A stretch of DNA of 60,202 nucleotides from the NCBI GenBank assembly GCA_017882445.1, contig JADGPK010000013.1, positions 1 to 60,202 of the forward strand. The letters are read 5' to 3'. Each line of letters begins with the position of its first letter. Position 1 is the first letter of the stretch. The DNA comes from Solirubrobacteraceae bacterium (GTDB lineage: Bacteria > Actinomycetota > Thermoleophilia > Solirubrobacterales > Solirubrobacteraceae). The notes beneath the pieces are model-generated. The model searched no databases and was not told the origin of the DNA. It worked only from the letters and a program-made list of their open reading frames with translations. A program made the translations under genes and the position numbers. Shown in pieces: positions 11,640 through 34,772 of the stretch.

Positions 11640-12830
11640 TCAGCTCGTGGTGGTCAGCTCCGCCACACACCAGGACCCTTCAGCGAGATCTCCGATCAGT
11701 CCCTCCAGCGCCCCCGCATGCTCGGTCCGCACTGAAGGATCGTCCTCGCGGATCGCCTGCCCCACCATCGTGTCGCAGAGGCGGCACTTCTCACAGTCGC
11801 GCATCCCGCCGCAACCTCCGCGTGCGTGCAGAGCGCGCGTCAGCTTGCCGAGCCGCGCGTTGTCGATGTAGATGTCGGGGCGCCGGTAGCGCTCGACCCC
11901 CCGCTCGGCTGCGAGCGCGGCGGTCATCGGGTGGTTTGAGAAGTCGACCGCAGGGGTCGCCAGCAGGTCCATGAAGTTCCCGTCGTAGCCAAGGCGCGCG
12001 TAGGCGCCCGCCATGTCGAGGATCCGCTCAAGCGGAAGCTGCCTGCCGGCGATCTTGAACAGCTCGATCCCGAAGCGCTCCTCGTAGTAGGGCAGGTCCT
12101 CGGGCCGAATCCAGGGTGAGCGCAGGATCTCGACCGGGTCGCGCGCGCGCACGGCCGAGCACTTCAACAGCGGGTAGTCGATGTAGCCGTGCTCGGGCTT
12201 GTCGCTCTGGGAGCCCTGCGAGCACAACGTGTTGTGGTAGGCGCGATAGGCGCAGAAGCGCAGGCAGCCGTTGTTGACCACCAGCGACAGATCGCTGTTG
12301 GCGGCCCCGCTCAGCAGCTCGAGCAGCGGCAGATCGCGGTTGCAGTCCTCGGCCAGCTGCACGCGCTGCGCGCCGTAGCGCTCGAACAGGCGCAGGCTGT
12401 TGGTGCTGGCCACCTCGCAGATCACCGAGACGCTCACCGGCAGCTCGGGGAGATGGCTGCGCACGAGCTCGATGAGGTAGGGCACAGCGATCGTCACCAT
12501 GTCCACGCCCGCGTCGGCCACCTCGCCGACATAGTCCAGGATTCGCTTACGCCCAGCGCGCGTGTACTCGGCATGGTCGAGCACCGCCGAGTTGAGCAGG
12601 TAGTTGACGCGGATGCCCGAGCCGTGGGCGCGCTCGGTGAAACGCCGCACATCTTCGAAGGTCGGCGAGCCACCCTGTTGGGTGAGCCGCCGCGCCGGAC
12701 GCCCGCTCCCGATCACCGAACGCGACAGCGAGCCGTAGACCTCGTGGATGCGCCCGGTCTCCGACTGCAGCTGCTCGAGACCGTCCAGCAGCTCGGGCTC
12801 GAAGCGGCTGGGAACGCAGATCTTGATCAT
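11640..12830 (-). CDS. U32-family (peptidase U32-like) iron-sulfur protein
   Basis: 396 residues, a TIM-barrel protein of the U32 family with the family's cysteine set: C189 (NNGCLRF), C193, C203 (NTLCSQ) and C224 (LLKCSAVR), which in UbiU/UbiV, TrhP and RlhA hold a [4Fe-4S] cluster. A second group, C340, C346, C349 and C352 (GGCGGMRDCEKCRLC), could hold another cluster or zinc. Known U32 proteins mostly take part in hydroxylation, in some cases without O2, rather than proteolysis. It is the last gene of the ten-gene molybdoenzyme operon, with a good ribosome site (GGAAGGA) before the ATG. I infer a redox or hydroxylation role connected with the complex; the peptidase name should not be taken literally. 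Confidence 0.8.
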   Translation of the reverse strand: MIKICVPSRFEPELLDGLEQLQSETGRIHEVYGSLSRSVIGSGRPARRLTQQGGSPTFEDVRRFTERAHGSGIRVNYLLNSAVLDHAEYTRAGRKRILDYVGEVADAGVDMVTIAVPYLIELVRSHLPELPVSVSVICEVASTNSLRLFERYGAQRVQLAEDCNRDLPLLELLSGAANSDLSLVVNNGCLRFCAYRAYHNTLCSQGSQSDKPEHGYIDYPLLKCSAVRARDPVEILRSPWIRPEDLPYYEERFGIELFKIAGRQLPLERILDMAGAYARLGYDGNFMDLLATPAVDFSNHPMTAALAAERGVERYRRPDIYIDNARLGKLTRALHARGGCGGMRDCEKCRLCDTMVGQAIREDDPSVRTEHAGALEGLIGDLAEGSWCVAELTTTS

Positions 12831-12889
12831 GTGGTCTTCCTTCCGCGGCGTGGAAGGCCGTCTGGCGCCCGGCGCTTGCGAGGCACGGC

Positions 12890-14140
12890 CTAGCCCTCAA
12901 CCAGGTACATCATCCCGTTGGCGTCGAACGACGCCAACGTCCACGTCTTGAACCACCCCTCCTGCAGGCGCGAGGTCAGGCGCTCGTCCCGTGCCGCGTC
13001 CCCCTCGTAGCCCGCCATCAGCTGCGGCCCACGGATCACCATGGTGGCGTAGTCGAGCAGTTCCCAGTTGGTGTCGAGGGGCTCACCCGTCTGGGGGTTG
13101 GCGGGCTGGACCTCGACGTTCGTGACAGGGATGCCGACCGACTCGTCCACGTACCAGCTCGGATGCGACGCGAGGATCGGCCCCGTCTCGGTGAGCCCGA
13201 ACATGGTCAGGATCGGCACGTCCAGCGCCTTGCGCGCTTTGCGCCTGTCGCTCGCTGCGAACGGGCGGTCTGTTGAGAGCAGCAGGCCGCGCAGATTGCG
13301 TTTCAGGCTGTCCGCCAGCCTGCGCGGCCGGCCACGCGCGAGGTCTCTGAGGCTGTCAAACGGGACCAGGGCGTGGGCGACGTGGTGATCGTCGACCGAG
13401 CCCGCGACCGCGTCGGTCGCGCCGTCGGGTCCGCAGATCACCGCGGTGCCGCCCATGTACAGCGGCACCATCGTGCTGTACAGGCCCTCCCACGTCCACA
13501 GCGGCATCGCAGACAGCCACGTCTCGGCCTGTTCGAGCCCGAGAAACGCCGCCATCGAGAGAGCGCCGCTGACGAGCGAGTAGTGCGAGTGGCCGGCGAC
13601 CCAGCCGTCTGCAGTCACCAGGTCCACGGCCGCTTCGTGCACGTCGCGCACGGCGTCCGTCTCGTGGAGCGTGGGAGTGTCGCAGTGCGTGGCGCCGGCC
13701 CGCTCCAGCTCGCCGATCTCGACCGCCTCGACCCCAGCGGGCGCCTGCGCGGGCGCCTGCACGACAGCCAGGTTGGCCCCGCCGGCCGCCGCCGTCTCGC
13801 CGGCGATGAGAGCGCGCGAGTCCAACAGAATCGGCCTCCAGCGCGCCGCTAGCGCGCCAACGAGCGCGACCACCCCGTCGACGCCGGCGGGTCCCACCAG
13901 CGCGACGCGCCCGCCGCTGGGGCTGCGCTCCCGCAACGCGCAGGCGACGGCCTGCGCGCGGGACCAGAGCTCGGCATAGGTGACGGAGCGCTCGCCATCG
14001 ACGACCGCCACCACCTCGGGCCGGCGGCGCGACCAGCGCTCGGCCATCAGCCTGTCGCAGAACATCGGCGGCACCCCCAGAAGCCGCGGCACGTCGTCCG
14101 GCCAATACCAAGAAGGGTTGATCGCTATCGTCTTTGCCAC
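12890..14140 (-). CDS. Acyl-CoA-synthetase-like protein lacking the C-terminal subdomain
   Basis: 416 residues with the N-terminal fold of AMP-binding (ANL) enzymes: VTYAELWSRAQAVACALRE, the substrate-pocket region WLSAMPLWTWEGLYST, the A5-like motif MFGLTETGPILASHPSW, and GIPVTNVEVQPANP. The P-loop motif (TSGTTGxPK) is not recognisable where it should be (VDLVTADGWVAGHSHYS). The protein ends at ANGMMYLVEG, just where the mobile C-terminal subdomain with the adenylation Lys would begin (intact enzymes are about 520 residues or more). The ATG lies within the end of the upstream ligase gene (16-base overlap), so it is clearly translated in the operon. It may be a non-catalytic subunit or a specialised ligase; ordinary CoA ligation seems unlikely. 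Confidence 0.7.
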   Translation of the reverse strand: MAKTIAINPSWYWPDDVPRLLGVPPMFCDRLMAERWSRRRPEVVAVVDGERSVTYAELWSRAQAVACALRERSPSGGRVALVGPAGVDGVVALVGALAARWRPILLDSRALIAGETAAAGGANLAVVQAPAQAPAGVEAVEIGELERAGATHCDTPTLHETDAVRDVHEAAVDLVTADGWVAGHSHYSLVSGALSMAAFLGLEQAETWLSAMPLWTWEGLYSTMVPLYMGGTAVICGPDGATDAVAGSVDDHHVAHALVPFDSLRDLARGRPRRLADSLKRNLRGLLLSTDRPFAASDRRKARKALDVPILTMFGLTETGPILASHPSWYVDESVGIPVTNVEVQPANPQTGEPLDTNWELLDYATMVIRGPQLMAGYEGDAARDERLTSRLQEGWFKTWTLASFDANGMMYLVEG

Positions 14141-15531
14141 CGGGACGCTCCGATCGGCTCACGCGTCTTCTCGGCGGCCATACGCGCCTTCCAGCGCCTG
14201 GGGAGATGCCCGCCCCAACTCACATCGACCGGAAGGCAGAGACTCGCCTCGAGATGCTCGGTGGCCGTCTCGGCGAGGCGACCGGCGCGGCTGGCGCCGT
14301 CCAGGCGCACCTGCAGGCGCGCCATCTCCGCGCCTTCGCGCACGATCACGAGCGGTACGCCCACCAGCTCGGGCATCTCGTCCAGGCGCGCGCGCACGTC
14401 GTACGGAGCTATCAGGCGGCCCTCGACGCGCACGCAGTCGGCCAGGCGTCCGTAGAGCTCGACCCGTGGATGGGTGCGGCCGCACGAACACGGCCCGGGC
14501 AACAGCTCCCCGAGATCCTCGGTGTCGAAGCGCACGTACAGCGAACGGTCCAGTGTCAGGTTGGTCACCACCACTGTGCCCCGCCGGCCCGGGCCGAGTG
14601 GCTCACGGGTATCCGGATCGAGCACCTCCACGCGGTGGTGGTCGAGCCACACGTGGTGGCCGGCGTGCGCCGGGCAGTCGGCCCCGCCCCACAGACCATC
14701 GCTGGAGCCGCCGCGCTCGAACAGATCCTCGAGTCCGAGCAGGCCGATCAGCAGCTGGCGCTGGCCGGGGCTCATCGGCTCTCCCACCACCATCGCGTAG
14801 CGCACGCTCTCAAACAGGTCGAGCACGTCCACTCCTCGCTCCAGCGCCCCCTCGACGATCGCGTGCAGCATCGTCGTGACGGTGAGCAGGTATTCGGGGC
14901 GCTGCTCGGCGATCGACTCGATCGCGTGCTCCACGAAGCGTGGCACGAACGTTCCCCAGGGGCAGAGGACCTCCGCCTGCATCCACTCCAGGGCCCGGTT
15001 GTCGAGCATGCTGAGGTGGTGCCAGGCCGGGTACTGGCACATGACGCGCATCCCCGGGCGCAGGCCGTCCATCCAGAGCTCACGCAGGACCTCGCGCGGA
15101 GAGCCGTGGTCGAACTCGCCCCAGCCGAGCGCCGCGAAGGTCGGAAAGCCGAGCGTGCCGGAGGTGAGCACGACGGCCGCGGCTCCCGCCTCGCCGAGCG
15201 CCTCGATGCCGGTCTCATATCCGCCGCTCCGTTGAAGCTCGGCGATCAGATCCGCCTTGTCGAAGGTGGGGACGATCGCGGTGAAGTCATCGAAGCTCTC
15301 GATCGCCGCAGGGTTCACGTGCGCGAGGCGCTCGCGATAGAAGGGCAGCCGCGCGGCCGTGTCGAGCACCTCCCGCAGACGTGCCAGCGCCGCGGTCTCC
15401 AGACGCGCGAGCGGCACCGTCTCGGCGTCATCGAGGTAGCGGCGCCCCACCGGCACCTTCCCGATGTCCGCCGTCTCGATGCCCTCGAGCAGATCCCAGC
15501 CCGCGGAGGTGGTTCTCGCCTTCGCCTTCAT
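14125..15531 (-). CDS. Phenylacetate-CoA ligase (PaaK)-like adenylate-forming protein
   Basis: 468 residues, close to the usual PaaK length (about 430-440). The N-terminus has LREVLDTAARLPFYRERL and VPTFDKADLIAEL, typical of PaaK. The P-loop-like site is VVLTSGTLGFPTF, a variant of SSGTTGKPT. Further conserved parts are VVGEPMSPGQRQLL, GSSDGLWGGADC in place of the usual aromatic-ligase E-T-G motif, VEVLDPDTREPLGPGRRG and LYVRFDTEDLGELLPGPCSCGRTHPR, which matches the D-hinge. The C-terminal ferredoxin-like subdomain is present but short. It could activate an aromatic or other carboxylate with ATP and CoA. It is translationally coupled on both sides (4 and 16 bases), so it belongs to the molybdoenzyme operon. 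Confidence 0.78.
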   Translation of the reverse strand: MKAKARTTSAGWDLLEGIETADIGKVPVGRRYLDDAETVPLARLETAALARLREVLDTAARLPFYRERLAHVNPAAIESFDDFTAIVPTFDKADLIAELQRSGGYETGIEALGEAGAAAVVLTSGTLGFPTFAALGWGEFDHGSPREVLRELWMDGLRPGMRVMCQYPAWHHLSMLDNRALEWMQAEVLCPWGTFVPRFVEHAIESIAEQRPEYLLTVTTMLHAIVEGALERGVDVLDLFESVRYAMVVGEPMSPGQRQLLIGLLGLEDLFERGGSSDGLWGGADCPAHAGHHVWLDHHRVEVLDPDTREPLGPGRRGTVVVTNLTLDRSLYVRFDTEDLGELLPGPCSCGRTHPRVELYGRLADCVRVEGRLIAPYDVRARLDEMPELVGVPLVIVREGAEMARLQVRLDGASRAGRLAETATEHLEASLCLPVDVSWGGHLPRRWKARMAAEKTREPIGASRWQRR

Positions 15532-16250
15532 GCGAGCTCCAGGCCCGCGTGCGGGCAGCCGACGGTTCCCGCCTCCGTCAACACGCCCAGCTCGGTGGTG
15601 AGGGGGTCCATGTCGAGGAAGCGCGGCCTGACGGTGAGCATGTGCCGCTCCTCCCCATCCGCCGATCGTTCGCCGTCGCCGCGCGTGATCTTCAGCTCAT
15701 AGAGATCCTCCGGCACCTGCAGCCTGCGGCAGCGCGGACACTCCCCCGCGACGAAGGCGGCCGCGTCGCAGCGCGCAAGCAGCGAGACGCCGCCGTGCCA
15801 CTCGCGTTCCCATAGGACGCGCTCGCCACGCGCGGGAGTGTCGCCGTCGGCGGTGACCACGAGCCTCGCCGCGCGCTGCTCGACGGGCACAGCGATTGGC
15901 CCGGCGATCAGCAGCCCTACCAACTCGGCTCGCACGAACACGAAGGACGGTGAGAAGTGGCGCAGGACGTGCGCGAACCGCGTGACATTGTCGGGAAGGC
16001 CGTCCACGCAGAGGACGCTCGCGCGCGCGTGCTCCGCGGCGCCCCGCCGGAGGTGCGGCGCAAACGCATGAGAGGCGAGATAGGCGGCCGGACTCGAGCC
16101 GTAGTCGTAGATCACGACACGGTCTCCGGCGCCTACCCCAAGCACGCTCCAGGCATGCCCGAGCGCCTCTGCATAGCCTGCGAGCGCCGCGCCCGAGAAC
16201 TCCACGAAGCCAGCGCCGGGGCGCTCGAGTTGGACGGTGAGCACGCTCAT
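15528..16250 (-). CDS. Small adenylate-forming-enzyme-related protein with CxxC motif
   Basis: 240 residues. The first part (GAALAGYAEALGHAWSVLGV, GAGDRVVIYDYGSSPAAYLA) resembles the early strands of AMP-ligase-type proteins, and LCVDGLPDNVTRFAHVLRHF continues in that style, but no ATP-binding motif is present. The C-terminal half contains a CPRC pair (about residue 178), an LTVRPRFLDMD segment and VGCPHAGLELA at the end. With about half the length of a ligase it cannot be a complete enzyme; it may be the missing portion of the neighbouring ligases, or an accessory or carrier protein. Its stop overlaps the start of the PaaK-like gene by four bases, which suggests equimolar synthesis. Homology is uncertain. 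Confidence 0.5.
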   Translation of the reverse strand: MSVLTVQLERPGAGFVEFSGAALAGYAEALGHAWSVLGVGAGDRVVIYDYGSSPAAYLASHAFAPHLRRGAAEHARASVLCVDGLPDNVTRFAHVLRHFSPSFVFVRAELVGLLIAGPIAVPVEQRAARLVVTADGDTPARGERVLWEREWHGGVSLLARCDAAAFVAGECPRCRRLQVPEDLYELKITRGDGERSADGEERHMLTVRPRFLDMDPLTTELGVLTEAGTVGCPHAGLELA

Positions 16251-16262
16251 CTCACCACCCCC

Positions 16263-16802
16263 TCAGACCAGTCCCCCGAAGGCCAGGGACACACCGAGCA
16301 CCGCGATCGTGGCGGCGACGAGCAGATCTGCGCGCAGCACGATCGCCATCCAGCGTGCCGCGCCGACCATCCGCTCCTGGCGGCGCTCGCGCTCCTCCTG
16401 CGAGAGCATCGGATCGATCTTGCCGATCAGCATCGGCCTCAGCACGAACGTCATCGTGAGACCGAGTGCCACGAGCACGCACCACAGCCCGAACATCGTG
16501 AAGATCGTCTGCCCGTATGCGCTCGAGGCCGTGGCGGACGTGAGGAAGAAAGTGCCCGGGAAGGCGAGCAGGTCGAGGTATCCCAGTCTCAGGATGCCCG
16601 TGATCAGGATCACCAGCAGCGAGCTCCAGGCGATGATCGCCTGGCGGTCGCCGGCCTTGCGCAAGACCACCGCCGCCTGCGCTGGTGCGACGGCGCTCGC
16701 CGCCGGTGTCAGCACGATCTCCGCGTAGAACAGCCCGCCGACGTAGACCGCGAAGGCCAGGTCGTGGAGAACCTGGTAGAGGAATTCGAGATTCAGATTC
16801 AT
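16263..16802 (-). CDS. Four-helix membrane protein, CopD-like
   Basis: 179 residues from ATG 16802, which overlaps the stop of the preceding gene by four bases. Four hydrophobic helices can be seen: about 8-33 (QVLHDLAFAVYVGGLFYAEI), 54-75 (AIIAWSSLLVILITGILRL), 95-118 (TIFTMFGLWCVLVALGLTM) and 150-178 (IVLRADLLVAATIAVLGVSLA). The first helix with its His followed by VYVGGL is like the small CopD/DUF-type integral membrane proteins, some of which bind heme b. A His in the membrane and its place between a molybdoenzyme and ligase genes make it a candidate membrane anchor or quinone-side electron carrier for the complex; this is inference only. Confidence 0.6.
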   Translation of the reverse strand: MNLNLEFLYQVLHDLAFAVYVGGLFYAEIVLTPAASAVAPAQAAVVLRKAGDRQAIIAWSSLLVILITGILRLGYLDLLAFPGTFFLTSATASSAYGQTIFTMFGLWCVLVALGLTMTFVLRPMLIGKIDPMLSQEERERRQERMVGAARWMAIVLRADLLVAATIAVLGVSLAFGGLV

Positions 16803-18313
16803 CCTTGCGCGTCGCCCTGGGTGTAGGGGTCCGAGTGGCCCGGGTGCCACGTGGCGAAGTGCTCACGGATCTGCTGCGTGACCGCGTAGGGCTCGCCGCC
16901 CCCGTTCGCCGACACCTGGAAGCGACGGTAGAAGTCGACATCGAGGTGGTGCACCTGGATCGAGGTGTGCGCATGCAGCGGGTTCGTGAACGCCGGCGCA
17001 CATCCGTACGTGTCGATGATGTACTGCACGGTCTCAAGCACGGCCGTCTCGACCCACTCCGCCGAGATGTGCGCGCGGGGGTGCTCGAGCACCTCCTCCA
17101 TGACCTCGGGCCTGTACGGACCGCCGTGCTCGAGCGCGTAGTTGCGCTCCTGCGAGAGCGGACCGCCGGACCCGTAGCGGAGCTCTTTCACGTAACGCAC
17201 CGCGCTCTCAGCCGTGGGGAACCGCTCCGAGGGCACCACCACCGCCTCCTTGACCCCCGGGAGGCCGGTTGCTGTCATCACCGCTGCCGGGTTGCGCTCC
17301 ACGTCGCGTTCGAGGTAGTTGAAGCCGAGGCCCTTCGCCACGTCGGGGAAACCCCCCAGCACCATGTCGCTCGAGTAGACGCCCAGCCTCCACGCACCCA
17401 GCCCGAGCGCCTCGCACGCCAGCCGCACGTTCTGCTGCAGCGCGCCGGCCTGACTTGCGTGCTCGAACGCAACCATCTCGTCGAACGACGGGATCGGCCA
17501 GCCCGTCTCCATGAAGCCCGGCTTTACCCAGATGTCGCAGCCGGCGGGCGAGAAGTCCTCGGGCTTGGCCAGGAATGTTCCCCACCACTCGTAGCAGGAG
17601 AACAGCAGGTTGAACCACTCGAGCCCGACGTCGCCGACCGGGATCAACCACGTGCTCCCGGGCCGGTTGACGTTGTACTGCGCGGGGCTCATCATGTCGA
17701 CCGAGCGGGTGTCCTCCGGTGCGGCATGCCAGCCGATGTCAGGGCGGCGGTCGGAGACCTGCACGAGGCCCGTCCGGTACCACTCGAGCACCTTGGCGTA
17801 GTCCTCGGGCGAGCGGATCTCGATCGGGCCCGAGCGGTCCTCGCCCGGGCGGTAGACATGCGTGCCGCGGTCGTTGACCACGAACAGGTCGATCGCGGCA
17901 TTGGAGTCGCCGCCGGGCACCGTCCGTCCCGCCCAGCTGAGCAGGCTCGAGAGGTTGCCGTGCACCGGGATGTCGGCCAGCGCGATTCCGTTGGGACCGC
18001 AGGCCGCCCAGCAGATCAGCGCCTCCTCCAGCTCTGAGAGCGCCACAGGGGCATGCGCCGAGGTGAACGCCAGTGGGCCCTTCGCCTGCTTGACGGTCTT
18101 GCCACTCGACCACTCGAGCACCTCCGACTCGCCGGTCTCGCAGCGGTAGCCGAGCCCCACGCGCCGCGTGCGCAGCGTCGAGAGCAGCTTGAAGAACGGC
18201 GGCGTGCCGTCGAAGGCGCGCCCCAACTGATCGCGCTCGGACTCGGATGTCGCCGTGGTGGCGGCGTCTGCGTTGACGGCGGCCGCCGTGGCGGTCTCGG
18301 GCTGGTAGTTCAT
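16799..18313 (-). CDS. Unrecognised 504-aa protein of the molybdoenzyme operon
   Basis: 504 residues from ATG 18313, which overlaps the stop of the catalytic subunit by four bases (ATGA). The N-terminal region, ALSELEEALICWAACGPNG followed by GNLSSLLSWAGRTVPGGDSN and IDLFVVNDRGTHVYRP, vaguely resembles a nitroreductase-like fold. The middle has SCYEWWGTFLAKPEDFSPAGCD, QQNVRLACEALGLGAWRLG and GFPDVAKGLGFNYLER. The C-terminal part ends in a His-rich segment: NPLHAHTSIQVHHLDVDFY, then HFATWHPGHSD. No signal peptide or membrane helix is apparent. The many His and conserved Cys could bind a metal or flavin. I do not assign a function. Tight coupling with the alpha subunit suggests a dedicated partner or the enzyme acting on its product. 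Confidence 0.65.
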   Translation of the reverse strand: MNYQPETATAAAVNADAATTATSESERDQLGRAFDGTPPFFKLLSTLRTRRVGLGYRCETGESEVLEWSSGKTVKQAKGPLAFTSAHAPVALSELEEALICWAACGPNGIALADIPVHGNLSSLLSWAGRTVPGGDSNAAIDLFVVNDRGTHVYRPGEDRSGPIEIRSPEDYAKVLEWYRTGLVQVSDRRPDIGWHAAPEDTRSVDMMSPAQYNVNRPGSTWLIPVGDVGLEWFNLLFSCYEWWGTFLAKPEDFSPAGCDIWVKPGFMETGWPIPSFDEMVAFEHASQAGALQQNVRLACEALGLGAWRLGVYSSDMVLGGFPDVAKGLGFNYLERDVERNPAAVMTATGLPGVKEAVVVPSERFPTAESAVRYVKELRYGSGGPLSQERNYALEHGGPYRPEVMEEVLEHPRAHISAEWVETAVLETVQYIIDTYGCAPAFTNPLHAHTSIQVHHLDVDFYRRFQVSANGGGEPYAVTQQIREHFATWHPGHSDPYTQGDAQG

Positions 18314-21126: not shown

Positions 21127-21146
21127 GTGCCCCTCCCCCTAGGATG

Positions 21147-21854: not shown

Positions 21855-21855
21855 C

Positions 21856-25453: not shown

Positions 25454-25920
25454 TGGCCGAAGTGTTCTCCACCGCGTGGCTCGCCCAGTGGGCGGAGCTG
25501 ATCAACTCCGACGAGAGCCTGCCGGACCACGCGCCGCCGGGACTGTGGCGGATCTACCTGCGGATCGAGGGCGACAGCGCCTCGCCATACGTGCCGCAGG
25601 ACGAGAGCCTGCACCTGCTGCTGCACCTAGAGGACGGGCGCTGCACCAAGCTCGAGCGGGGCGCAGGGCCACCCGGGCCGCGTGACCTCGACTTCCGCTT
25701 CTCCGGTCCGGCGGCCGTCTTCGAGCAGGTCGCCGCCGGCCAGCGCGACCCGGTCGACGCGGGCCTCGAGGGCGACATCAAGATCGCCGGGGACATGGGC
25801 TTCCTGCTGCGCCACGCGGAGCTCGTGAAGGAGATCGTCGACCTCTACGTCGGGCGGCTGGAGACCGACTGGCCCAAGGGCAAGCCGCCCTACGGCGGCG
25901 AGGCGGTGAGCGCAGCGTGA
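25453..25920 (+). CDS. SCP2-like lipid-binding-domain protein 1
   Basis: 155 residues: FSTAWLAQWAELINSDESL, IYLRIEGD, ESLHLLLHLEDGRCTKLERG, DLDFRFSGPAAVFEQVAAGQ and GLEGDIKIAGDMGFLLRHAEL. This is the SCP2 (sterol carrier protein 2) fold, which makes a hydrophobic tunnel and is used by bacteria as a carrier domain for lipids or as part of enzymes. It overlaps the upstream FAD enzyme by one base and the downstream one by four, so it is made together with them. A role presenting a lipophilic substrate to the FAD enzymes is a reasonable inference. Confidence 0.8.
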   Translation: MAEVFSTAWLAQWAELINSDESLPDHAPPGLWRIYLRIEGDSASPYVPQDESLHLLLHLEDGRCTKLERGAGPPGPRDLDFRFSGPAAVFEQVAAGQRDPVDAGLEGDIKIAGDMGFLLRHAELVKEIVDLYVGRLETDWPKGKPPYGGEAVSAA

Positions 25921-27563: not shown

Positions 27564-27949
27564 GGCGCCGTGCCGCCGGCGAGCCTCCGTCTGTTGAGGT
27601 CGGAGACGGAGCGGCGTCCGGCATCGCGCAGGTGACCGCCGACCTGTTCGCCCAGGCGATCGCCGGGCGGCCGGGTCGGGCAGCGCGGCTCCAGGGGTCA
27701 CTGGCCCTGAAGGGCACCGACCACGACTTTGGGAGCACCGTGTACTTCGAGCACGAGCGCATCAGGGTGACGGGCAGCGCCGACCCCGACGCGCTGGTCG
27801 TGATCGAGGGCCCGATGATGACGCTGGCGCAGCTCGGCTCGGGGGGGCATGCGCTTCGGGCCTGCCTGCGCCGCGAGGTCAGGGTGCGCGGCGCGCTTCG
27901 CCATCCGCTGCTGCTGATCCGCACGCGCAGGCTGCTGGGTGGGCGGTAG
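27560..27949 (+). CDS. SCP2-like protein 2 (short)
   Basis: 129 residues from a GTG at 27560 that overlaps the stop of the FAD gene (GTGTGA). The sequence IAQVTADLFAQAIAGRPGRAA, GTDHDFGSTVYFEHERIRVTG, DALVVIEGPMMTLAQLGSG and HALRACLRREVRVRGALRH is an SCP2-like beta-alpha fold, shorter than its neighbour. With it the operon has a repeating pattern: FAD enzyme, SCP2, FAD enzyme, SCP2. It converges with the alpha-subunit operon; the 86 bases between the two show no clear terminator hairpin. Confidence 0.7.
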   Translation: MRRRAAGEPPSVEVGDGAASGIAQVTADLFAQAIAGRPGRAARLQGSLALKGTDHDFGSTVYFEHERIRVTGSADPDALVVIEGPMMTLAQLGSGGHALRACLRREVRVRGALRHPLLLIRTRRLLGGR

Positions 27950-28035
27950 CCGAGCTCGCGCGCCCACCCTGGAGACGACCACGGGGCAGACCGCGCGGGC
28001 CGTGGCACCCGCGAGAGGGAGAGCCGACCGCGCGC

Positions 28036-30897
28036 TCACACCCCCTCCGGCGCGACCTCCTCCTCGACCTTGCTGATCGCCACCCTGACGCCGCGGTCGG
28101 ATGGCGCGGGCTGCCACTGGAACGGCCTGTAGCGCAGGTGCCCGTAGCCGCCCGCGAGGTGCAGCCACTTCACCATCCCCGGCTCGGCGTCCGACTGCCC
28201 TTTCCAGCCGGGGTGCATGAAGTGCTCCCAGCCGTTGTAGAGGATGATCTGCCCGGGGCGGACCGAGGGAGCGATCTTGGCCCAGACCTGGAGCTCGCCG
28301 AAGTCGTTGCGCAGGTGCATGAGGTCGCCGTCGCCGATGTCCAGCTCTTCCGCGTCCCTCGGGTTGAGCATCGCGAACGGACGTCCCCGGTGCGTGTTGA
28401 GCAGCAGCGGGTTGGCCATGTTCGCCGAGTGCACCGACCAGCGGTTGTGGCCGCTGGTGATGAAGAACGGGTAGTCGCCGCCGGCCTTCGGCGGGTCCTT
28501 GTGGCAGGGAAGCTCCTCGCCCGCCTCCAGGAACCACTCGTGGTCGACGTAGAACTGCGCGCGGCGAGTGAGGGTGGGGTAGGGCTCACCCTTCTCCACG
28601 TGCAGGCGGAAGGGCGTGTGGGTCTCGTCGGGGAGCAGCTCGGATGCCTGGGAGAGCGCCATGCTCGACAGCCCCCAGCCCGTGAAGCGGATCGTGCCCT
28701 TCTCACGCAGCGTCTCCAGCGTGGTGTCGGAGGGGAGCGTTCCCACCAGGGCGCAGTCGCGCAGGATCTCGTCGACCATCGCCTCTTCGTCGGGGATCGT
28801 GCCGCCCAGCGTCCACTCCTCCCCGAGCGTGTCGAGCCGCCGCTGCACGCCGAGGGCGTCGCCGTAGCTCTCGACGCCCCGCGCCGTGGCCCGCTCGGTC
28901 AGCTTCTCCGAGAGGGCCTTGAAGATGTCCCACTCGCTGCGGGACTCGCCCAGCGGCTCGACCGCGCGGTCGCCGAGGGTGACGTTCATGAACTGGGGGG
29001 TCGGGTTGCCGAACCAGATCTTCTCGTGCTGGTGCGCGGCGGGAAGCACGATGTCGGAGTGCAGCGCGGTGATGCTCATGCGCGTGTCGATGACGACGAT
29101 CAGGTCGAGTTTCGGCCACAGGCTTCCCAGCAGGCGGGTCGCTCCGCCGCGCGTGCGTCGCAGCATGTTGCCTCCGCACTCGATCAGCACGCGCGGCTCG
29201 GTGTGCGAGGCGACGTCGGTCAGCCGCCCCCACCAGCGCTTGTCCGTCGCCTCCTGGAAGTACTCGTCGAAGGAGCGCTTCATCGACGGGTCCGACCACT
29301 CGGGCCGGTTCCAGGCGTCGCGGAAGCCGCAGTGGTAGTACCAGTAGATCGCCGGGGGCACCGAGTTGGCACCCGACATCGAGAAGCGGTTCTGCTCGTC
29401 GCCGAGCGCTCCGATCGTCTCGAACTCGACCGCGATCAGCTCGGGCGTGCGCGTGGCGTCCTCCTCCGCGAGCTTCCCGATCACGGTGGACAGGGAGGTG
29501 ATCAGCATCTCCGATCCCTCGACTCCCGCGCGCGGCTTGGCCAGCGCGATCCCGATCCCGTCCATCATGCCGGTCGCCCAGGTCTTCGGTCCGGTGCCCT
29601 TCTTGCCCCAGTTGCCGGTCAGGCCCAGCAGGAGCATGATCGAGCGCTCCATCAAATCGCCGTGGTAGTACTTCATCGAGTTGAAGCCCATCAGCAGATG
29701 GGTCCGCTTGGCCGCCACCTTTCGGGCCAGGTCACGGATCACCTCCGGGTGAGCGCCGCAGTGCTCGCTCGCCAGCTCCGGCTCGTAGGCCGCCAGCCGC
29801 TCGCGCAGCAGCTCGAAGACGGGCGTCACCTCGACCTCCGTGCCATCGTTGAGCCTCACCGGCCAGCGGCCCTGAAGCAGGGATCGCCGCCCGCCGAGCA
29901 GCAGATTGCCGCGATCGGCCGCCACCACGCCCTCCTCGGCGTCGTAGCGATAGAAGAGCTCGTCCGACCCACCCTGCTCGAGGTCCGACGCGCGCAGGAA
30001 GCATCGCGTGTCGAGTCGCACGAGCAGCGGCAGGTCGGTCTGCTCGCAGACGAACCGCTCGTCGTAGATGTCCTCGTCGATGATGACCTTGCACATGCTG
30101 AGAGCCAGCGCCGCATCCGAGCCGGGCTCGACCGCCACGAACGTGTCGGCGTGCACCGCGGAGGGGTTGTAGTCGGGCGCGATGCTGACGACCTCCGCGC
30201 CCTTGTAGCGTGCCTCGGCGATGTAGTGGAAGTGCGGGATGCGGGTGTAAGCGGGGTTCATGTGCCAGATCAGCAGCAGATCGGCGTGGAACCAGTCGTC
30301 GACGCTCGCGGCCGGGCAGCCGGTCCCGTAGGTGATGTAGACGCCCGGGCCGAAGTCGTTCACCGAGCCGTCCATGTCGAGGGTGATGGCCCCGAGCCGA
30401 TCGAGCAGGCGCTGTGGGTAGGAGATCGCCGAGAAATGCGGCGTGCCGTCGCGCAGGATCGCCTCGGGCCCCTCCTCCACCAGCACGTCGATCAGCTTGT
30501 CGGCGATCTCCGTGAGCGCCTCCTCCCAGCTGATCCGCTTCCAGCTCGCCGAGCCCCGCTCTCCTACCCGCTTGAGCGGGTGCAGGATGCGGTCGGCGCT
30601 GTAGAGCTGCTCGCTCCAGGCGGCGCCCTTCTGGCAGCCCATCGGGTTCATGTCCGGCACGCCCGCCTCGACCTGCTCCATGTGGCCGGACTGCTCCTCG
30701 CGCACCACGATCCCATCCTTGACGTACACGCGCACGGGACAGTTGCCGGCCGGGTAGCAGTCGATGCAGTGCGTGCCCCGAACGACCTTGTCCCAGGTCC
30801 ACTTCTCCCCGTAGATGTCCGCGACGCCGGAATAGGCCTTGTTCCTGACCGCTCGACGCGAGCGGTCAGATCGGGAACTGGTCGCTCTCGAGCTCAT
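28036..30897 (-). CDS. Type II DMSO-reductase-family molybdoenzyme alpha subunit 2
   Basis: 953 residues. The FS0 site is H43, C44, C47, C53 and C88, with CIDCYPAGNC giving C-x2-C-x5-C, longer than in alpha 1. Other features: WKRISWEEALTEIADKLID, the Asp-bearing VNDFGPGVYITYG, HMNPAYTRIPHFHYIAEARY, SIAPDYNPSAVHADTFVAV and GSDAALALSM. Near the C-terminus are ITSGHNRWSVHSANM and LYNGWEHFMHPGWKG. It begins MSSRATSSRSDRSRRAVR; this Arg-rich start has no hydrophobic stretch and is not a Tat signal. It follows alpha 3 after 36 bases and has no own beta, gamma or chaperone gene; it may share those of operon 1. Substrate unknown. Confidence 0.86.
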   Translation of the reverse strand: MSSRATSSRSDRSRRAVRNKAYSGVADIYGEKWTWDKVVRGTHCIDCYPAGNCPVRVYVKDGIVVREEQSGHMEQVEAGVPDMNPMGCQKGAAWSEQLYSADRILHPLKRVGERGSASWKRISWEEALTEIADKLIDVLVEEGPEAILRDGTPHFSAISYPQRLLDRLGAITLDMDGSVNDFGPGVYITYGTGCPAASVDDWFHADLLLIWHMNPAYTRIPHFHYIAEARYKGAEVVSIAPDYNPSAVHADTFVAVEPGSDAALALSMCKVIIDEDIYDERFVCEQTDLPLLVRLDTRCFLRASDLEQGGSDELFYRYDAEEGVVAADRGNLLLGGRRSLLQGRWPVRLNDGTEVEVTPVFELLRERLAAYEPELASEHCGAHPEVIRDLARKVAAKRTHLLMGFNSMKYYHGDLMERSIMLLLGLTGNWGKKGTGPKTWATGMMDGIGIALAKPRAGVEGSEMLITSLSTVIGKLAEEDATRTPELIAVEFETIGALGDEQNRFSMSGANSVPPAIYWYYHCGFRDAWNRPEWSDPSMKRSFDEYFQEATDKRWWGRLTDVASHTEPRVLIECGGNMLRRTRGGATRLLGSLWPKLDLIVVIDTRMSITALHSDIVLPAAHQHEKIWFGNPTPQFMNVTLGDRAVEPLGESRSEWDIFKALSEKLTERATARGVESYGDALGVQRRLDTLGEEWTLGGTIPDEEAMVDEILRDCALVGTLPSDTTLETLREKGTIRFTGWGLSSMALSQASELLPDETHTPFRLHVEKGEPYPTLTRRAQFYVDHEWFLEAGEELPCHKDPPKAGGDYPFFITSGHNRWSVHSANMANPLLLNTHRGRPFAMLNPRDAEELDIGDGDLMHLRNDFGELQVWAKIAPSVRPGQIILYNGWEHFMHPGWKGQSDAEPGMVKWLHLAGGYGHLRYRPFQWQPAPSDRGVRVAISKVEEEVAPEGV

Positions 30898-30933
30898 GGC
30901 ACCGCCTCCTCAGATCGGTCTGTTCTGCCCGGC

Positions 30934-33783
30934 TCAGGCCTCGACCCGCTCGGCGACCTTCTCGGCCTCCACATACACGCCGCGATCGAACTGCACCGGC
31001 TGCCACTGCGTCGGCCAGAAGCTCATGTGGCCGTAGTTTGCGAAGTGGAGCCACTTGACCATCCCTGGCTCGACGTCGCTGCCCCCCTTCCAGCCCTTGT
31101 GCATGAACGGCTCCCAGCCGTTGTAGAGGATGATCTGGCCGGGCCTCACCGATGGAGCGATCTTCACCGGCACCTGGTAGGAGCCGAAGTCGTTGAAGAC
31201 CTTGATCTCGTCGTCGTCCTCGATGTCACGCGCGGCGGCGTCGTGCGGGTTCAGGAAGCAGAAGGGGTGGCCGCGGTGGGTCTGCAGCAGGATCGGGTTG
31301 GTCATGTTCATCGCATGGATCGAATGGCGGATGTGGCCTGAGGTGATGTGCAGCGGGTAGTCGCCGCCCATCTTGGGCGGCTCCTTGTGCCGCGGCAGTG
31401 CCTCGTCCGCCTCCAGGAACCACGGATGCTCGAGGTAGAACTGCGCGCGACGCGTGAGCGTCGGGTAGGGCTGCTTCTGCTCGGTGTGTCGGCGAAACGG
31501 CACGTGCACCTCGTCGGCCTTTACATCTGAGGCCTGGGCCAGGGCCATCGGCGAGAGGCCCCAGTCGATGAAGCGGACGAAGCCCTGCTCGCGCATCGTC
31601 TCCAGGTCGGTGCCGGCGGGCAGTGAGCCGGACAGCACCGTGTCGCGAAGAATGTCGTCGACCACGGTCTCCTGGTCTTCCAGCGCCCCGTTCAGCGTGT
31701 AGCGCTCAGCGAGCGTGCCGAGGTCGAGCTTGTTGCCCTTCCAGTCGCGGTATTCGGTGAATCCCCGCTGCTTGGCGCGCTCGCTCACCTTCTGCGCGAG
31801 CAGCTTGAAGATCTCCCACTCCGGCTTGGCCTCTCCGGCGGGCTCCACCGCCTTGTCGGAGAAGGTCGCGTTCATCAGGTGCGGGGTCGGGACGGCGAAG
31901 CCGAGCTTCTCGTAGTGGTTGGCCGCGGGGAGCACGATGTCGGCGTGCATCGCGGTCATGCTCATGCGGAGGTCCACCGTCACGATCATCTTGAGCTTCG
32001 GCCAGAGGTGCTCGAGCAGCATCGTCGTGCCCCCGCGTGTGCGCCGCAGGATGTTCCCGCCGCACTCGATCAGCACGCGCGGCTCGGCGCGCTCGGCGAG
32101 CTCGGGCAGCTGGCCCCACCAGCCCTCGCTGAACGCCTCCTCGACGTAGTCGTCGAACGGCCTGCGCATCGCCGGATCACTCCACTCGCGCCTGTTCCAG
32201 ACCTCGCGGTAGCCGCAGTGGTAGTACCAGAAGAAGGCCGCCGGCACGATGTTCTGCCCCAAGCCGCCGGTGAAACCCTCGACGCCCTGCGCGATCTGCT
32301 TCTGAGACTCGATGATGGCCTGTTCCGGCGTCAGGGTCGGGTCGTCTTTGAGCGCCTGCTCTAGTGTCCCGGCCGCCGCCATCATCACCTGCTGGGCGCC
32401 CTCGAGCCCGGGCTGCTCCTTCGCCATCGCGATCGCGAGGCCGTCGAGCTGACCGGTCGACCAGCAGCGCGTTCCCGTCCCGTGCTTGCCCCAGTTGCCG
32501 GTCAGGCCCAGCAGGAGCGCCATCGAGCGCTCCATCAGGTCGCCGTGGTAGTTCTTCATCGAGTTGTAGCCCATCATGATGTTCGTGCGCCGCTGGGCGA
32601 CCTTGCGTGCAAGCCAGCGGATGTCGTCCGCGTGGATGCCGCAGACGCCGGCTGCCAGCTCGGGCGTGTAGTGCTCGTTCAGGCGCGCCTTCAGCAGCTC
32701 GAAGACCGGCGTCACCTCGACCCGCTCGCCGCCGGGCAGCTCGACCTCGAAGGCGCCTTCGAGCGCCGGGGCGACGTCGGCGAGCTCGAGGCTGCCACGC
32801 CCGGCCTGCGCAACGGCGCCCTTGCCGCTGTCCCACCAGTAGAACTGGTCCTCCCGCCCCTCCGCGTCGAAGTCGGTGGCGCGCAGGAAGCGCTTGGTGT
32901 CGGCGCGCACGAGCAGGGGCAGATCCGTCTGCTCGGTGACGAACGCGCGGTCGAGCAGGCCCTCTTCGATGATCACCTGACACGCCCCCAGCGCGAACGC
33001 GGCGTCGGTGCCGGGACGGATCGGCAGGAAGGCGTCGGCGTGGATCGCGGACGGGTTGTAGTCGGGTGCGATCGACACCACCTCGGCGCCGTGGTAGCGC
33101 GCCTCGGCCACGAAGTGGAAGTGGGGAATACGCGTGTACGCCGGGTTCATGTGCCAGATCAGGACCAGCTCGGAGTTGAACCAGTCGCCGATCTCCGAGA
33201 CCCCGTTGAACTTTCCGTAGGTCTCGTACAGGCCCGAGGCGAAGTCGTTGATCGAGCCGTTCAGGTCGGTCGTGACGGCGCCGATCAGGTCCAGGAACCG
33301 CTGGGCCTCGATCACGGCCCCGATCTCGGGGGTCCCCTCGCGGATGATCGACTCGGGACCGTCCTCGCGGATCGTGTCGATCAGGGCGTCGGCGATCTCG
33401 GTGAGCGCCTCATCCCAGGAGATCTGCTTCCACTTGCCCGAGCCGCGCTCGCCGGCGCGCTTGAGCGGGTGCATCAGGCGGTCGGGGCTGTAGAGCTGCT
33501 GGCTCCAGGCGGCGCCCTTCTGGCAGCCCATCGGGTTGTTGTCCGGGATCCCGGGCTCGATCTGCTTGAACGTTCCCGCCTGCTCCTCGCGCCAGACGAT
33601 GCCGTCCTTGACGTAGACGAAGAAGGGGCAGTTGCCCGGATAGCAGTCGATGCAGTGCGTGCCCCAGGCGACCTTGTCCCACGTCCACTTCTCCCTGTAG
33701 ATGTCCGCGACGCCCGCATACGGCTCGGCCCTCACCGCCCGGCGCGAGCGGCGTGAGCGAGAACTGGTCGCGTTGGAACTCAT
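30934..33783 (-). CDS. Type II DMSO-reductase-family molybdoenzyme alpha subunit 3
   Basis: 949 residues from ATG 33783 (the frame extends upstream but only through promoter and antisense sequence). The N-terminus is very similar to alpha 2 (RSRRAVR...YAGVADIYREKWTWDKV). The FS0 site is H43, C44, C47, C52 and C87, spacing C-x2-C-x4-C. The Asp region is INDFASGLYETYGKF, then HMNPAYTRIPHFHFVAEARY and SIAPDYNPSAIHADAFLPI, with C-terminal ITSGHIRHSIHAMNM. Alpha 2 and alpha 3 look like products of a tandem duplication that diverged, whereas alpha 1 is more distant. First gene of a two-gene operon downstream of the LuxR regulator. Confidence 0.87.
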   Translation of the reverse strand: MSSNATSSRSRRSRRAVRAEPYAGVADIYREKWTWDKVAWGTHCIDCYPGNCPFFVYVKDGIVWREEQAGTFKQIEPGIPDNNPMGCQKGAAWSQQLYSPDRLMHPLKRAGERGSGKWKQISWDEALTEIADALIDTIREDGPESIIREGTPEIGAVIEAQRFLDLIGAVTTDLNGSINDFASGLYETYGKFNGVSEIGDWFNSELVLIWHMNPAYTRIPHFHFVAEARYHGAEVVSIAPDYNPSAIHADAFLPIRPGTDAAFALGACQVIIEEGLLDRAFVTEQTDLPLLVRADTKRFLRATDFDAEGREDQFYWWDSGKGAVAQAGRGSLELADVAPALEGAFEVELPGGERVEVTPVFELLKARLNEHYTPELAAGVCGIHADDIRWLARKVAQRRTNIMMGYNSMKNYHGDLMERSMALLLGLTGNWGKHGTGTRCWSTGQLDGLAIAMAKEQPGLEGAQQVMMAAAGTLEQALKDDPTLTPEQAIIESQKQIAQGVEGFTGGLGQNIVPAAFFWYYHCGYREVWNRREWSDPAMRRPFDDYVEEAFSEGWWGQLPELAERAEPRVLIECGGNILRRTRGGTTMLLEHLWPKLKMIVTVDLRMSMTAMHADIVLPAANHYEKLGFAVPTPHLMNATFSDKAVEPAGEAKPEWEIFKLLAQKVSERAKQRGFTEYRDWKGNKLDLGTLAERYTLNGALEDQETVVDDILRDTVLSGSLPAGTDLETMREQGFVRFIDWGLSPMALAQASDVKADEVHVPFRRHTEQKQPYPTLTRRAQFYLEHPWFLEADEALPRHKEPPKMGGDYPLHITSGHIRHSIHAMNMTNPILLQTHRGHPFCFLNPHDAAARDIEDDDEIKVFNDFGSYQVPVKIAPSVRPGQIILYNGWEPFMHKGWKGGSDVEPGMVKWLHFANYGHMSFWPTQWQPVQFDRGVYVEAEKVAERVEA

Positions 33784-33888
33784 GCGCGTCACCTCCGTAC
33801 ACCGGCTGGGTTGGCGTTGCCCCGAGCGACCACTGCGCGGGCCACGTCGCTGTGGCAGATGCAACAGCATGCGAGCCCACTTTTGAAT

Positions 33889-33910
33889 CCGACATTTGTA
33901 GGGGCGAGCC
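33889..33910 (-). promoter_or_regulatory. Conserved box upstream of molybdoenzyme operon 2
   Basis: Minus-strand CCCTACAAATGTCGG at 33889-33903, 106 bases upstream of the alpha 3 ATG, differs by one base from the copy at 23656-23670. It lies in the 158-base gap between the regulator gene and alpha 3. The match of 14 of 15 bases, in the same orientation and before functionally related operons, is unlikely to be chance and suggests a common regulator. Confidence 0.6.
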
Positions 33911-33941
33911 GTGCTACCGGCGTCTGCCGGCGGGACTCGCC

Positions 33942-34772
33942 TCAGGATGGATCGGCGCCGAGCAGCCCCAGCTCCCAGCCGCGCGTGACCGCCGCCGAGC
34001 GGCTGGGGACGTCGAGACTGTGCAGCACGCTCGACACGTGGTCGCGCACCGTGAACACGCTCAGGCCGGTGGCCGTGGCGATCTCCTTGTTCGACAGGCC
34101 CCTGCTGAGAAGGCGCAGCGTCTGGGACTGGCGTGCGGTCAGGGCTGGGAGCTGGTCTGCTCCCGCCCTGCGGGTGCCGTAGCCTTTCGCCGCGTCGAGC
34201 GCCAGGCCGAGGCTCTTGCCCACGCACGCGGCGGCCCTCAGCAGCTCATCGCTGACCCCGAAGGGCTCGCCGCGGCGGTCGAGCAGCATCACGGCCACGG
34301 GACCGGCGCCATCGATCACCGGAACGCAGAGCAGCGGACCGAGGCGGAACAGCTCGACGTACCTCATCGGGAGCAGGGGACCGTGACCCACGTTCAGCGC
34401 GTACGCCGGCCGGCCGCTGATCGCGCAACCCTCGATCCAGGGACTCGACTCGAAGGGCTCGCTGATCCCCCCGAGCATCGTCGGGTTCAGGCCGTAGCCG
34501 GTGGCGCCCCTGATCCGCCGAACATCCCAGTTGACACGCAGGAACGCCACGCGCGAGAAGCCGAGCGCGTGACACGCCTCCCTCCCGACGGCTGCCGTCA
34601 CCCGGGAGACGGGGGAGGCGACGAGGAGGAACTTGTTGAAGGCGTCCAGGCGCCACGCGAGCTCATTGCCGGACTGCCGCGTCGATTGCCGGGCGCCCGC
34701 GGGCGGTCCGGTCCAGGCCGGTGGTGAATGGGCTGCGGAGCTGACGCCGCTCACGCCGGCGACGCTCCGCAT
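33942..34772 (-). CDS. GAF-domain LuxR-type transcriptional regulator
   Basis: 276 residues. After a variable N-terminus there is a GAF-like sensor region (about 45-205): VSRVTAAVGREACHALGFSR, PWIEGCAISGRPAYAL, PLLCVPVIDGAGPVAVMLLD and RRGEPFGVSDELLRAAA. The C-terminus (about 215-272) is a LuxR HTH: LTARQSQTLRLLSRGLSNKE, IATATGLSVFTVRDHVSSVL and HSLDVPSRSAAV. There is no receiver domain, so it probably binds a small molecule, perhaps the substrate of the pathway. It lies directly upstream of alpha 3 in the same orientation, making it the best candidate regulator of the boxes at 23656 and 33889. The exact start is uncertain. Confidence 0.82.
   Translation of the reverse strand: MRSVAGVSGVSSAAHSPPAWTGPPAGARQSTRQSGNELAWRLDAFNKFLLVASPVSRVTAAVGREACHALGFSRVAFLRVNWDVRRIRGATGYGLNPTMLGGISEPFESSPWIEGCAISGRPAYALNVGHGPLLPMRYVELFRLGPLLCVPVIDGAGPVAVMLLDRRGEPFGVSDELLRAAACVGKSLGLALDAAKGYGTRRAGADQLPALTARQSQTLRLLSRGLSNKEIATATGLSVFTVRDHVSSVLHSLDVPSRSAAVTRGWELGLLGADPS

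Follow-up and report, generated by a model that had tools for sequence, protein, structure and literature searches.

The closest described counterparts of the locus studied here are the ethylbenzene dehydrogenase (EBDH) of Aromatoleum, encoded by EbdABCD (structure 2IVF), and the molybdenum (Mo) hydroxylases S25DH/S26DH of Sterolibacterium denitrificans. S25dA, CmdA and EbdA are tabulated as periplasmic in PMC10100899, and S25DH/S26DH were placed in the periplasm from their twin-arginine translocation (Tat) sequences, with haem b in S26DH1 (PMC7411048). Several paralogous Mo hydroxylases are used in sequence in S. denitrificans (PMC7411048, PMC11061730), and its stigmasterol route, as described in PMC11061730, has a CtmAB-like flavin desaturase acting before the Mo C26 hydroxylase: the product of the steroid delta24-desaturase is the substrate of the Mo-dependent enzyme, and homologues occur in Acidimicrobiales, among others. 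The present analysis concerns a 60,202-nucleotide stretch of a Solirubrobacteraceae genome (assembly GCA_017882445.1, contig JADGPK010000013.1, positions 1 to 60,202; hereafter, the window), and within it a 17-gene island (11640..34772) in which three EbdA-type catalytic (alpha) subunits are accompanied by one set of beta, gamma and TorD genes. With about even confidence, we read this island as a system for the cytoplasmic, O2-independent oxidation of a water-insoluble, probably isoprenoid-type substrate (a sterol side chain, a terpenoid or similar).

The island has in common with EbdABCD the alpha, beta and gamma subunits and a TorD-type chaperone, as well as the Mo-ligand Asp and Lys450 columns and the beta Fe-S pattern. 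Unlike EbdABCD, it shows no Tat motif, altered haem ligands in gamma, several alphas per beta/gamma set and no equivalent of His192, and it has a set of three further proteins attached (p504, TM4 and AMPb). Compared by description only, the genomes that carry the island resemble S. denitrificans in their several paralogous Mo hydroxylases, while neither the periplasmic location nor the haem b given for S25DH/S26DH (PMC7411048) would be expected of the island. A first-pass annotation of the window had stated that no described system held this set of genes; for the combination of flavin and Mo enzymes this does not stand, given that S. denitrificans is, by analogy, a direct precedent for such chemistry on isoprenoid side chains (PMC11061730), and it holds for the p504-TM4-AMPb part, of which no description was found in open-access PMC text. 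The island is EBDH/S25DH-like, probably for isoprenoid-type lipids, with a new conserved partner set. Its genes, and those adjoining its right edge, are the following:

11640..12830, minus strand: U32-family protein (PF01136, 45.2 bits; Cys patterns NxGCxxxC, [KR]CS and DCxxCxxC in five aligned sequences including the window)
12890..14140, minus strand: AMPb, adenylate-forming-enzyme relative and probable pseudo-ligase, without recognisable P-loop or C-terminal domain (PF00501, E 8e-31)
14125..15531, minus strand: PaaK-like protein with part of the catalytic motifs altered (PF00501, E 2e-8)
15528..16250, minus strand: p240, short (240 aa) PaaK-like protein (no Pfam match; blastp clustering with PaaK)
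16263..16802, minus strand: TM4, small hydrophobic membrane protein (four transmembrane segments by the count of the first-pass annotation; PF05425, CopD-like, E 5.5e-5, below cut-off)
16799..18313, minus strand: p504, nitroreductase-fold protein, probably a flavin mononucleotide (FMN) flavoprotein
18310..21126, minus strand: alphaA, type II Mo-bisMGD (bis-molybdopterin guanine dinucleotide) catalytic subunit without Tat leader (TIGR03479, E 2.6e-257; tree; N-terminus)
21147..21854, minus strand: TorD-family chaperone (PF02613, TIGR03482)
21856..22914, minus strand: beta, EbdB-like Fe-S subunit, 4Fe-4S (2ivf_B, E 3.5e-122)
22926..23597, minus strand: gamma, EbdC-like subunit (PF09459; haem ligand columns K/K, not Met/Lys)
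23819..25453, plus strand: FAD1, CtmAB/delta24-desaturase-like flavoenzyme, ~544 aa (motif GFYHNLHA)
25453..25920, plus strand: SCP2a, lipid-carrier-type protein (PF02036, E 1.9e-6)
25917..27563, plus strand: FAD2, CtmAB/delta24-desaturase-like flavoenzyme, ~548 aa (motif GFLHNVHA)
27560..27949, plus strand: SCP2b, a weak assignment (PF02036, E 0.017, below the Pfam cut-off)
28036..30897, minus strand: alphaB, second type II Mo subunit, long-branched relative of alphaC
30934..33783, minus strand: alphaC, third type II Mo subunit
33942..34772, minus strand: GAF-LuxR regulator (PF00196, E 6e-11; GAF, E 0.0013, below cut-off)
35506..38488, plus strand: modABC-like ABC uptake genes (PF13531, PF00528, PF00005 with TOBE)
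38514..43185, strand not specified: Mo-cofactor genes moaA, mobA-like, moeA, moaD-moaE fusion and mog-like (Pfam)

The three Mo alphas and their neighbours reproduced the architecture of the first-pass annotation, as all 17 open reading frames (ORFs) were present with the place, strand and order given there, namely a ten-gene minus-strand operon, a divergent four-gene operon and convergent alphas behind a GAF-LuxR regulator. Third-position G+C was 0.80-0.94 in 16 of the 17 frames (SCP2b, 27560-27949, was not among the listed frames), and coding was further backed by the protein-level conservation of the island genes in other species. Starts were taken from the translations (beta ~22914, gamma ~23597, FAD1 ~23819, SCP2a ~25453, alphaC ~33783), the longer ORFs being over-extended. 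Within the ten-gene operon, alphaA/p504, p504/TM4 and p240/PaaK overlap by 4 bases and PaaK/AMPb by 16 bases, and the largest gap (59 bases) precedes U32; the plus-strand operon FAD1-SCP2a-FAD2-SCP2b begins at a distance of ~220 bases from gamma and runs towards alphaB/alphaC in convergent orientation. The right edge originally drawn at 34772 did not hold, since the Mo uptake and cofactor genes beyond it are a Mo supply unit that adjoins the edge directly and continues to 43185; the functional island is therefore nearer 11.6-43.2 kb.

In order to evaluate the conservation of the neighbourhood, a collection of 84,980 species was scanned with a p504 profile, and the best 80 of 195 relatives were kept, resulting in 79 loci. 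Those with p504 identity of ~49% or more (39) are referred to as module loci, and the 40 others had a more distant p504 (ORFs in the fetched loci came from an ad hoc heuristic that placed some starts too far upstream). An alpha lay immediately upstream of p504 in 36 of the 39 module loci, TM4 followed p504 in 38 (the single miss being a contig end), and AMPb was found at most 6 kb downstream of p504 in 32; four of the seven misses had no room for it, and among the misses the gene was located elsewhere in L034 and L061 (further downstream) and L064 (upstream). Further upstream, a second alpha was present in 22/39 module loci, beta in 25/39, TorD in 26/39 and gamma in 22/39. Five loci with ~10 kb of room (L027, L033, L052, L055 and L057) had no beta, gamma or TorD before alphaA, so that alphaA-p504-TM4-AMPb constitutes the smaller constant unit. 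No alpha was detected within the fetched flanks of the 40 loci with more distant p504, and TM4 only in one (L065). The alpha-bearing carriers were assigned to Solirubrobacterales and other Actinomycetota, Acidimicrobiia, Chloroflexota, Alphaproteobacteria and Gammaproteobacteria, and a chance cluster of genes was rejected as gene order is kept across phyla. The neighbourhood search proposed in the first-pass annotation thus leaves its idea of a linked system unrefuted.

The link between alphaA and p504 was also observed in the opposite direction. Among 36 alpha loci recovered from searches with the alphas (L107-L142, short flanks), the seven with a best hit to alphaA of at least 57% all had an adjacent p504 (all seven were already in the p504 scan), and no p504 was found in the short flanks of L125 (a weaker alphaA-like sequence, 49%) or of the 28 alphaC/B-like loci. 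One of the seven, L137 (the L032 locus), was recovered again in a draw of Chloroflexota genomes made without p504; among the Chloroflexota genomes with alphas, G303 and G665 showed alphaA together with p504, and G687 and G478 had two scored alphas each, not alphaA-like.

The phylogenetic analysis of the alphas was based on a first tree of 78 rows and an enlarged tree of 99 of 107 rows, the latter obtained with a quick method and Shimodaira-Hasegawa-like approximate likelihood ratio (SH-aLRT) support only, after merging 27 duplicates and excluding eight alphas of 700 aa or less. Both trees placed all window alphas, which match PF00384/PF01568 and whose closest solved relative is EbdA 2IVF, in one clade (83 rows, support 100 in the enlarged tree). 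This clade was sister to EbdA plus L134 and L135 (Tat-bearing EBDH-like rows from proteobacterial genomes; SH-aLRT 99 for the joint branch) and was separated from ClrA, PcrA and haloarchaeal NarG by a branch with support 97, long branches (EbdA, ClrA, PcrA and others) leaving the deep placement unsure. Based on these sequences, the three alphas belong to a well-supported clade beside EbdA, apart from the tested nitrate, chlorate and perchlorate reductases, in agreement with the EbdA-type assignment made in the first-pass annotation, for which a grouping with nitrate reductase would have been the contrary outcome. Nitrate reductase as the identity of the alphas was rejected, a separate NarG being encoded in the genome and the alphas lying apart from haloarchaeal NarG. 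Within the large clade, an alphaA clade (36 rows, support 100) contained 33/33 of the p504-linked alphas of the tree, together with three basal rows without p504 link (L039_9552, L056_14811 and L125), while alphaC-type rows were split into several lineages, the window alphaB being a long-branched alphaC relative. Curated type II models were the best family by E-value for the tested subunits, with each single protein scoring under the cut-off. Residue numbers and roles are presumed here from the EBDH literature, where Asp223 of EbdA is taken to be the Mo ligand: the Asp223 column held D in 61/61 rows with a letter, of 70 (34/37 alphaA and 27/33 alphaC-type, the rest being gaps), and the Lys450 column held K in 70/70.

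Export was evaluated through a search for the motif RRxF[LI], not with a signal-peptide predictor, in a stretch of at most 170 residues upstream of position 60 in the matched core. The motif was found in 0/82 clade alphas with a readable N-terminus (the 83rd, L048, is cut before it) and in 7/14 alphas outside the clade (ClrA, haloarchaeal NarG, L134, L135, L154, L155 and L158), the outside rows without it being four convergent Chloroflexota alphas, L139, L142 and L156. Moreover, some alphaA frames have no room for a leader, because they open 18-29 residues before the FS0 His. The clade alphas therefore seem, as judged from their N-termini, to work in the cytoplasm rather than being exported; such a placement would fit the SCP2-type proteins, which would be superfluous to a periplasmic system, an argument rather than a test.

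The haem site of gamma was examined next. The ligands of nitrite oxidoreductase (NXR) are given as Met155 and Lys305, "as in EBDH" (PMC8387239), and the corresponding MG and GxK columns were located by counting along the printed alignment, in a table of 22 gammas from ORF clustering (18 module, 4 convergent) plus two controls rather than every locus. The full Met and Lys pair was present in 0/18 module gammas (Lys missing in 17/18, Met in 11/18), as against 3/4 convergent gammas and 2/2 controls (ClrC and a haloarchaeal gamma); two more outside gammas, L157 and L158, showed both ligands by eye. Since none of the 18 has both residues, the module gamma is predicted to be either haem-free or to bind haem differently. 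The convergent gammas belong to more canonical alpha-gamma-beta-TorD operons, found on the minus strand at ~14-19 kb in L030, L037, L040 and L058, with Met/Lys in three of the four gammas and no Tat motif.

The flavoenzymes bear on the nature of the substrate. The best model for FAD1 and FAD2 was CrtO (CrtI/CrtO-like), far below its cut-off. The consensus around the covalently flavinylated His of the steroid delta24-desaturase and CtmAB is printed as G-F-L/R-X-N/S-T/L-H-A in PMC11061730; GFYHNLHA of FAD1 and GFLHNVHA of FAD2 retain G-F, N and H-A. Among 16 distinct FAD homologues in the searched loci, 8 fit GF..[NS].HA and 15 keep HA (the L014 copy of L023 supplied two more rows). FAD1/FAD2 form, as do CtmAB of Castellaniella defragrans and the delta24-desaturase, an adjacent pair of ~60-kDa CrtI-like flavoenzymes with the flavin His motif in both; unlike CtmAB, compared here by motif and not by whole sequence, they have interleaved SCP2 genes, adjacent Mo alphas and one motif departure each. 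The motif points to isoprenoid or allylic carbons as the probable site of action. The aromatic alternative named in the first-pass annotation found no particular support, and its hydrophobic substrate, oxidized by several Mo enzymes together, is the likeliest kind.

The companion of alphaA, p504, which had been described as unknown, showed a nitroreductase-type fold over ~180 of its 504 residues, with 13-23% identity to FMN nitroreductases (8cqs, 3hj9, 3hoi; ThcOx). It is alike to them in this fold and differs in its length and in being the usual neighbour of alphaA and TM4. Pfam searches of p504 and p240 gave no match even at E 5, PF00881 included for p504. In an alignment of 60 of the 79 loci plus the window, R50 and R51 were invariant in the 61 sequences, consistent with bound FMN, and p504 is probably an FMN flavoprotein. 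In TM4 one strongly conserved His was found, and no claim of haem is made.

The three adenylate-forming relatives that had been expected to activate aromatic acids fared differently. The canonical PaaK-type loop is SGTTG, and the P-loop of ANL ligases is SGTTGxPKG. Both AMPb and the PaaK-like protein matched PF00501, as anticipated, while p240, a short PaaK-like protein, matched no Pfam family. The P-loop was present in 0/34 aligned AMPb homologue rows (the L057 row is out of frame there), and in the AMPb of the window only PF00501 was matched, with the C-terminal domain unmatched. A working CoA ligase role was consequently rejected, and a function in binding or as a scaffold is probable for AMPb instead. 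Eight PaaK sequences were compared: the window reads TSGTLGFPTF, five relatives resemble it in having L or H where SGTTG has its second T, L064 had no match, and L025 keeps SGTTGRPTF, which is why PaaK may be active in some carriers. In 5/5 sequences, the Cys residues of the U32 protein are arranged so that they could hold an Fe-S cluster, and its PF01136 match (45 bits, cut-off 22) covered one 66-residue stretch, with 20.7 bits against a cut-off of 534 for TrhP and 15.9 against 440 for UbiU.

Taken as a pathway, the island would work as follows. SCP2 would present the lipid in the cytosol, FAD1/FAD2 would introduce a double bond or an allylic hydroxyl group, and alphaC/alphaB and alphaA would add water-derived oxygen at different carbons, with electrons passing down the beta Fe-S chain. 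Given the changed haem site and the lack of a visible export signal, the electrons would exit by a route other than the gamma haem and a periplasmic acceptor; the probable flavoprotein p504 and the membrane protein TM4 are the candidates for transfer to the quinone pool. The resulting alcohol would go on to a CoA thioester and beta-oxidation through other genes. The lipid substrate, the order of the steps, the exit through p504/TM4 and the scaffold role of AMPb are what we infer in this scheme. Should the apparently cytoplasmic placement, altered haem site and new neighbours of this multi-phylum clade be true, the view of electron exit and substrate access in O2-independent C-H oxidation would change; in addition, the island offers a recognisable gene set for finding, among uncultured bacteria, possible degraders of sterols or terpenoids that would do without oxygenases, and makes lipid breakdown at scarce O2 testable in new groups.

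The genes around the module in other carriers included SDR (short-chain dehydrogenase/reductase), Zn-dependent alcohol dehydrogenase, acyl-CoA dehydrogenase, acyl-CoA ligase, thiolase, OYE/ETF (old yellow enzyme/electron-transfer flavoprotein) and CoA-transferase III genes, and in single genomes a FAS1-type dehydratase was also found near the module and paralogous alphas; these surroundings point to catabolism via CoA thioesters. The reverse search showed 5-12 alpha matches (E 1e-60) in each of six module genomes (L027, L030, L040, L042, L049 and L058), some of them gene pieces. Such numbers recall the multiple S25DH/S26DH-like enzymes of Sterolibacterium.

Several observations weigh against a cytoplasmic lipid-oxidizing system. 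No substrate-specific gene was identified in the island, and FAD homologues occurred in 6/39 module loci and SCP2a in 2/39, making the lipid/isoprenoid clue a local add-on; each flavin motif also departs once from the printed consensus (Y at position 3 in FAD1, V at position 6 in FAD2). The absence of a Tat motif in the four convergent Chloroflexota alphas shows that the trait is not unique to the clade. In gamma, the window retains Lys as a ligand (K/K), and 7/18 module gammas retain Met. The fold match of p504 leaves most of the protein uncovered, with TM-scores by query length of 0.2-0.25. Three loci (L034, L061 and L064, labelled 'Proteobacteria' or 'Deltaproteobacteria') have p504-TM4-p240-PaaK-AMPb without alpha, with U32 in L064, and genome G308 (L034), of which the completeness is not known, gave no alpha match; p504 is thus not tied to Mo everywhere, which argues for a p504-TM4-AMPb set separable from the Mo enzyme and against p504 as its strict subunit. 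At the level of the alphas, single proteins scored under the curated type II cut-offs (TIGR03479/03478/03477/03482): alphaA 856, alphaC 931 and alphaB 910 against 985, beta 477 against 481, gamma 138 against 170 and TorD 145 against 152. AlphaB and alphaC exceeded the cut-off only after neighbours in frame were added, and alphaA reached 734 on NF042978 (cut-off 2000). The tree references comprised EbdA, ClrA, PcrA and haloarchaeal NarG, without S25dA, S26dA, CmdA, AhyA, DdhA or SerA sequences; Lys450 fails to separate hydroxylases from reductases, because ClrA has K too, and EbdA His192 has no counterpart in the clade, at a place where the alignment is uncertain.

Among the alternatives, we tentatively entertain one that shifts the emphasis from the lipid to the partner set: alphaA-p504-TM4-AMPb would form the centre of a new, cytoplasmic class of Mo hydroxylases that work without haem, with electrons passing via p504 and TM4 to the quinone pool, an inactive ligase-fold protein serving as the holder of substrate or complex, and interchangeable alphaC-type subunits and CtmAB-type pairs setting the substrate range. 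A biosynthetic or tailoring role seems unlikely. In the anaerobic ubiquinone hydroxylation by UbiUVT, U32 Fe-S-type and SCP2-domain proteins act in one pathway, and the joint presence of U32 and SCP2 in the island recalls it; with UbiU/UbiV- and UbiT-like proteins, the Mo and flavin enzymes would act at low O2 on an isoprenoid made by the cell itself (quinone, carotenoid or hopanoid), hydroxylating or desaturating it. The carotenoid models CrtO/CrtI were the best ones for the FAD enzymes, all below cut-off, and a genome with three COX1 matches and NarG would meet both oxic and anoxic conditions. However, U32 occurs in only 4/39 module loci and is as distant from the UbiU equivalog as the scores above indicate, SCP2a is as rare as noted, the set is present in 4/24 genomes of the genus only, and the many alphas of the six module genomes, some beside beta-oxidation-type genes, look catabolic; unlike UbiUVT, the island has a single, divergent U32 plus Mo enzymes.

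That the Mo enzymes are terminal reductases (of an oxyanion or N-oxide, or dehydroxylating), with the flavoproteins in a separate pathway, we consider rather improbable: the type II family does include chlorate, perchlorate, selenate and nitrate reductases, and Lys450 is common to ClrA, yet against it stand the placement of the clade beside EbdA, the lack of a Tat motif, the changed haem site, the flavoprotein conserved next to alphaA, and a separate, full NarG already encoded in the genome. Equally little credence, or slightly less, is given to the aromatic-hydrocarbon pathway of the first-pass annotation, in which the ligase relatives would make aryl-CoA. It could draw on the relatedness of the alphas to EbdA, on the PaaK-like sequence, with its intact-looking SGTTGRPT loop in L025, and on a thiamine-diphosphate enzyme that adjoins the module in L027. 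Nevertheless, AMPb shows no P-loop in the 34 rows, the loop of the window PaaK is altered (SGTLGF), and the flavin motif suggests allylic isoprenoid chemistry. The oxidation of an isoprenoid-type lipid in the cytoplasm remains the reading preferred here.

The genome, 3.27 Mb in 234 contigs of which the window is one, has three COX1 matches and a full, separate narG, so that the host is probably a facultative aerobe able to use nitrate. Its closest named relative at the locus was a Solirubrobacteraceae metagenome-assembled genome (L023; p504 93%). Four of the 24 genomes of the genus contain alphaA, and exactly these four also contain p504; if two sets of four were drawn at random from 24, they would coincide with a chance of 1/10,626, a value to be read bearing in mind that neighbouring genes are not independent and many genomes are incomplete. 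A type II alpha above E 1e-150 was detected in 1/246 genomes of the phylum draw (the host itself), in 4/400 genomes of the Chloroflexota draw, including the centre genome, and in 1/398 genomes of the Pseudomonadota draw, again the centre genome (in the latter two draws, only the two best candidates per genome were scored). The island is rare and patchy, as expected for a transferred catabolic unit.

Additional features were observed around the module. In L024 and L025, too, alphaC is preceded by a LuxR homologue. The loci L034, L061 and L064 have as neighbours a CoA-transferase pair, a small nitroreductase and an MqnC/CofH-like radical SAM protein (tested in L034; cluster-mates in the others). 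In L060 and L062 (Pseudonocardia dioxanivorans and Actinophytocola), a p504 homologue (39%) lies near cluster-mates of a small nitroreductase, a thiolase and an acyl-CoA ligase, and in L060 CofD, over its curated cut-off, lies beside p504. A link to F420, based on this CofD and on the radical SAM protein of L034 and its L061/L064 cluster-mates, is kept as a lead only, because it was not seen in most module loci. A DUF3237 protein follows AMPb in the proteobacterial carriers L042, L049 and L051 (tested in L049; cluster-mates in the others), and a Pfam search of the 208-aa protein of cluster c12 gave nothing. The Rfam search of the window and of L015 gave no match, and ARAGORN reported a tRNA with a four-base anticodon (7583-7673, minus strand), probably spurious, which overlaps an alcohol dehydrogenase frame of the window. 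This frame belongs to the region left of the island (6905-9253), with Zn-dependent alcohol dehydrogenase and FAA-hydrolase genes, whose clusters (c16 and c28) recur in some other loci.

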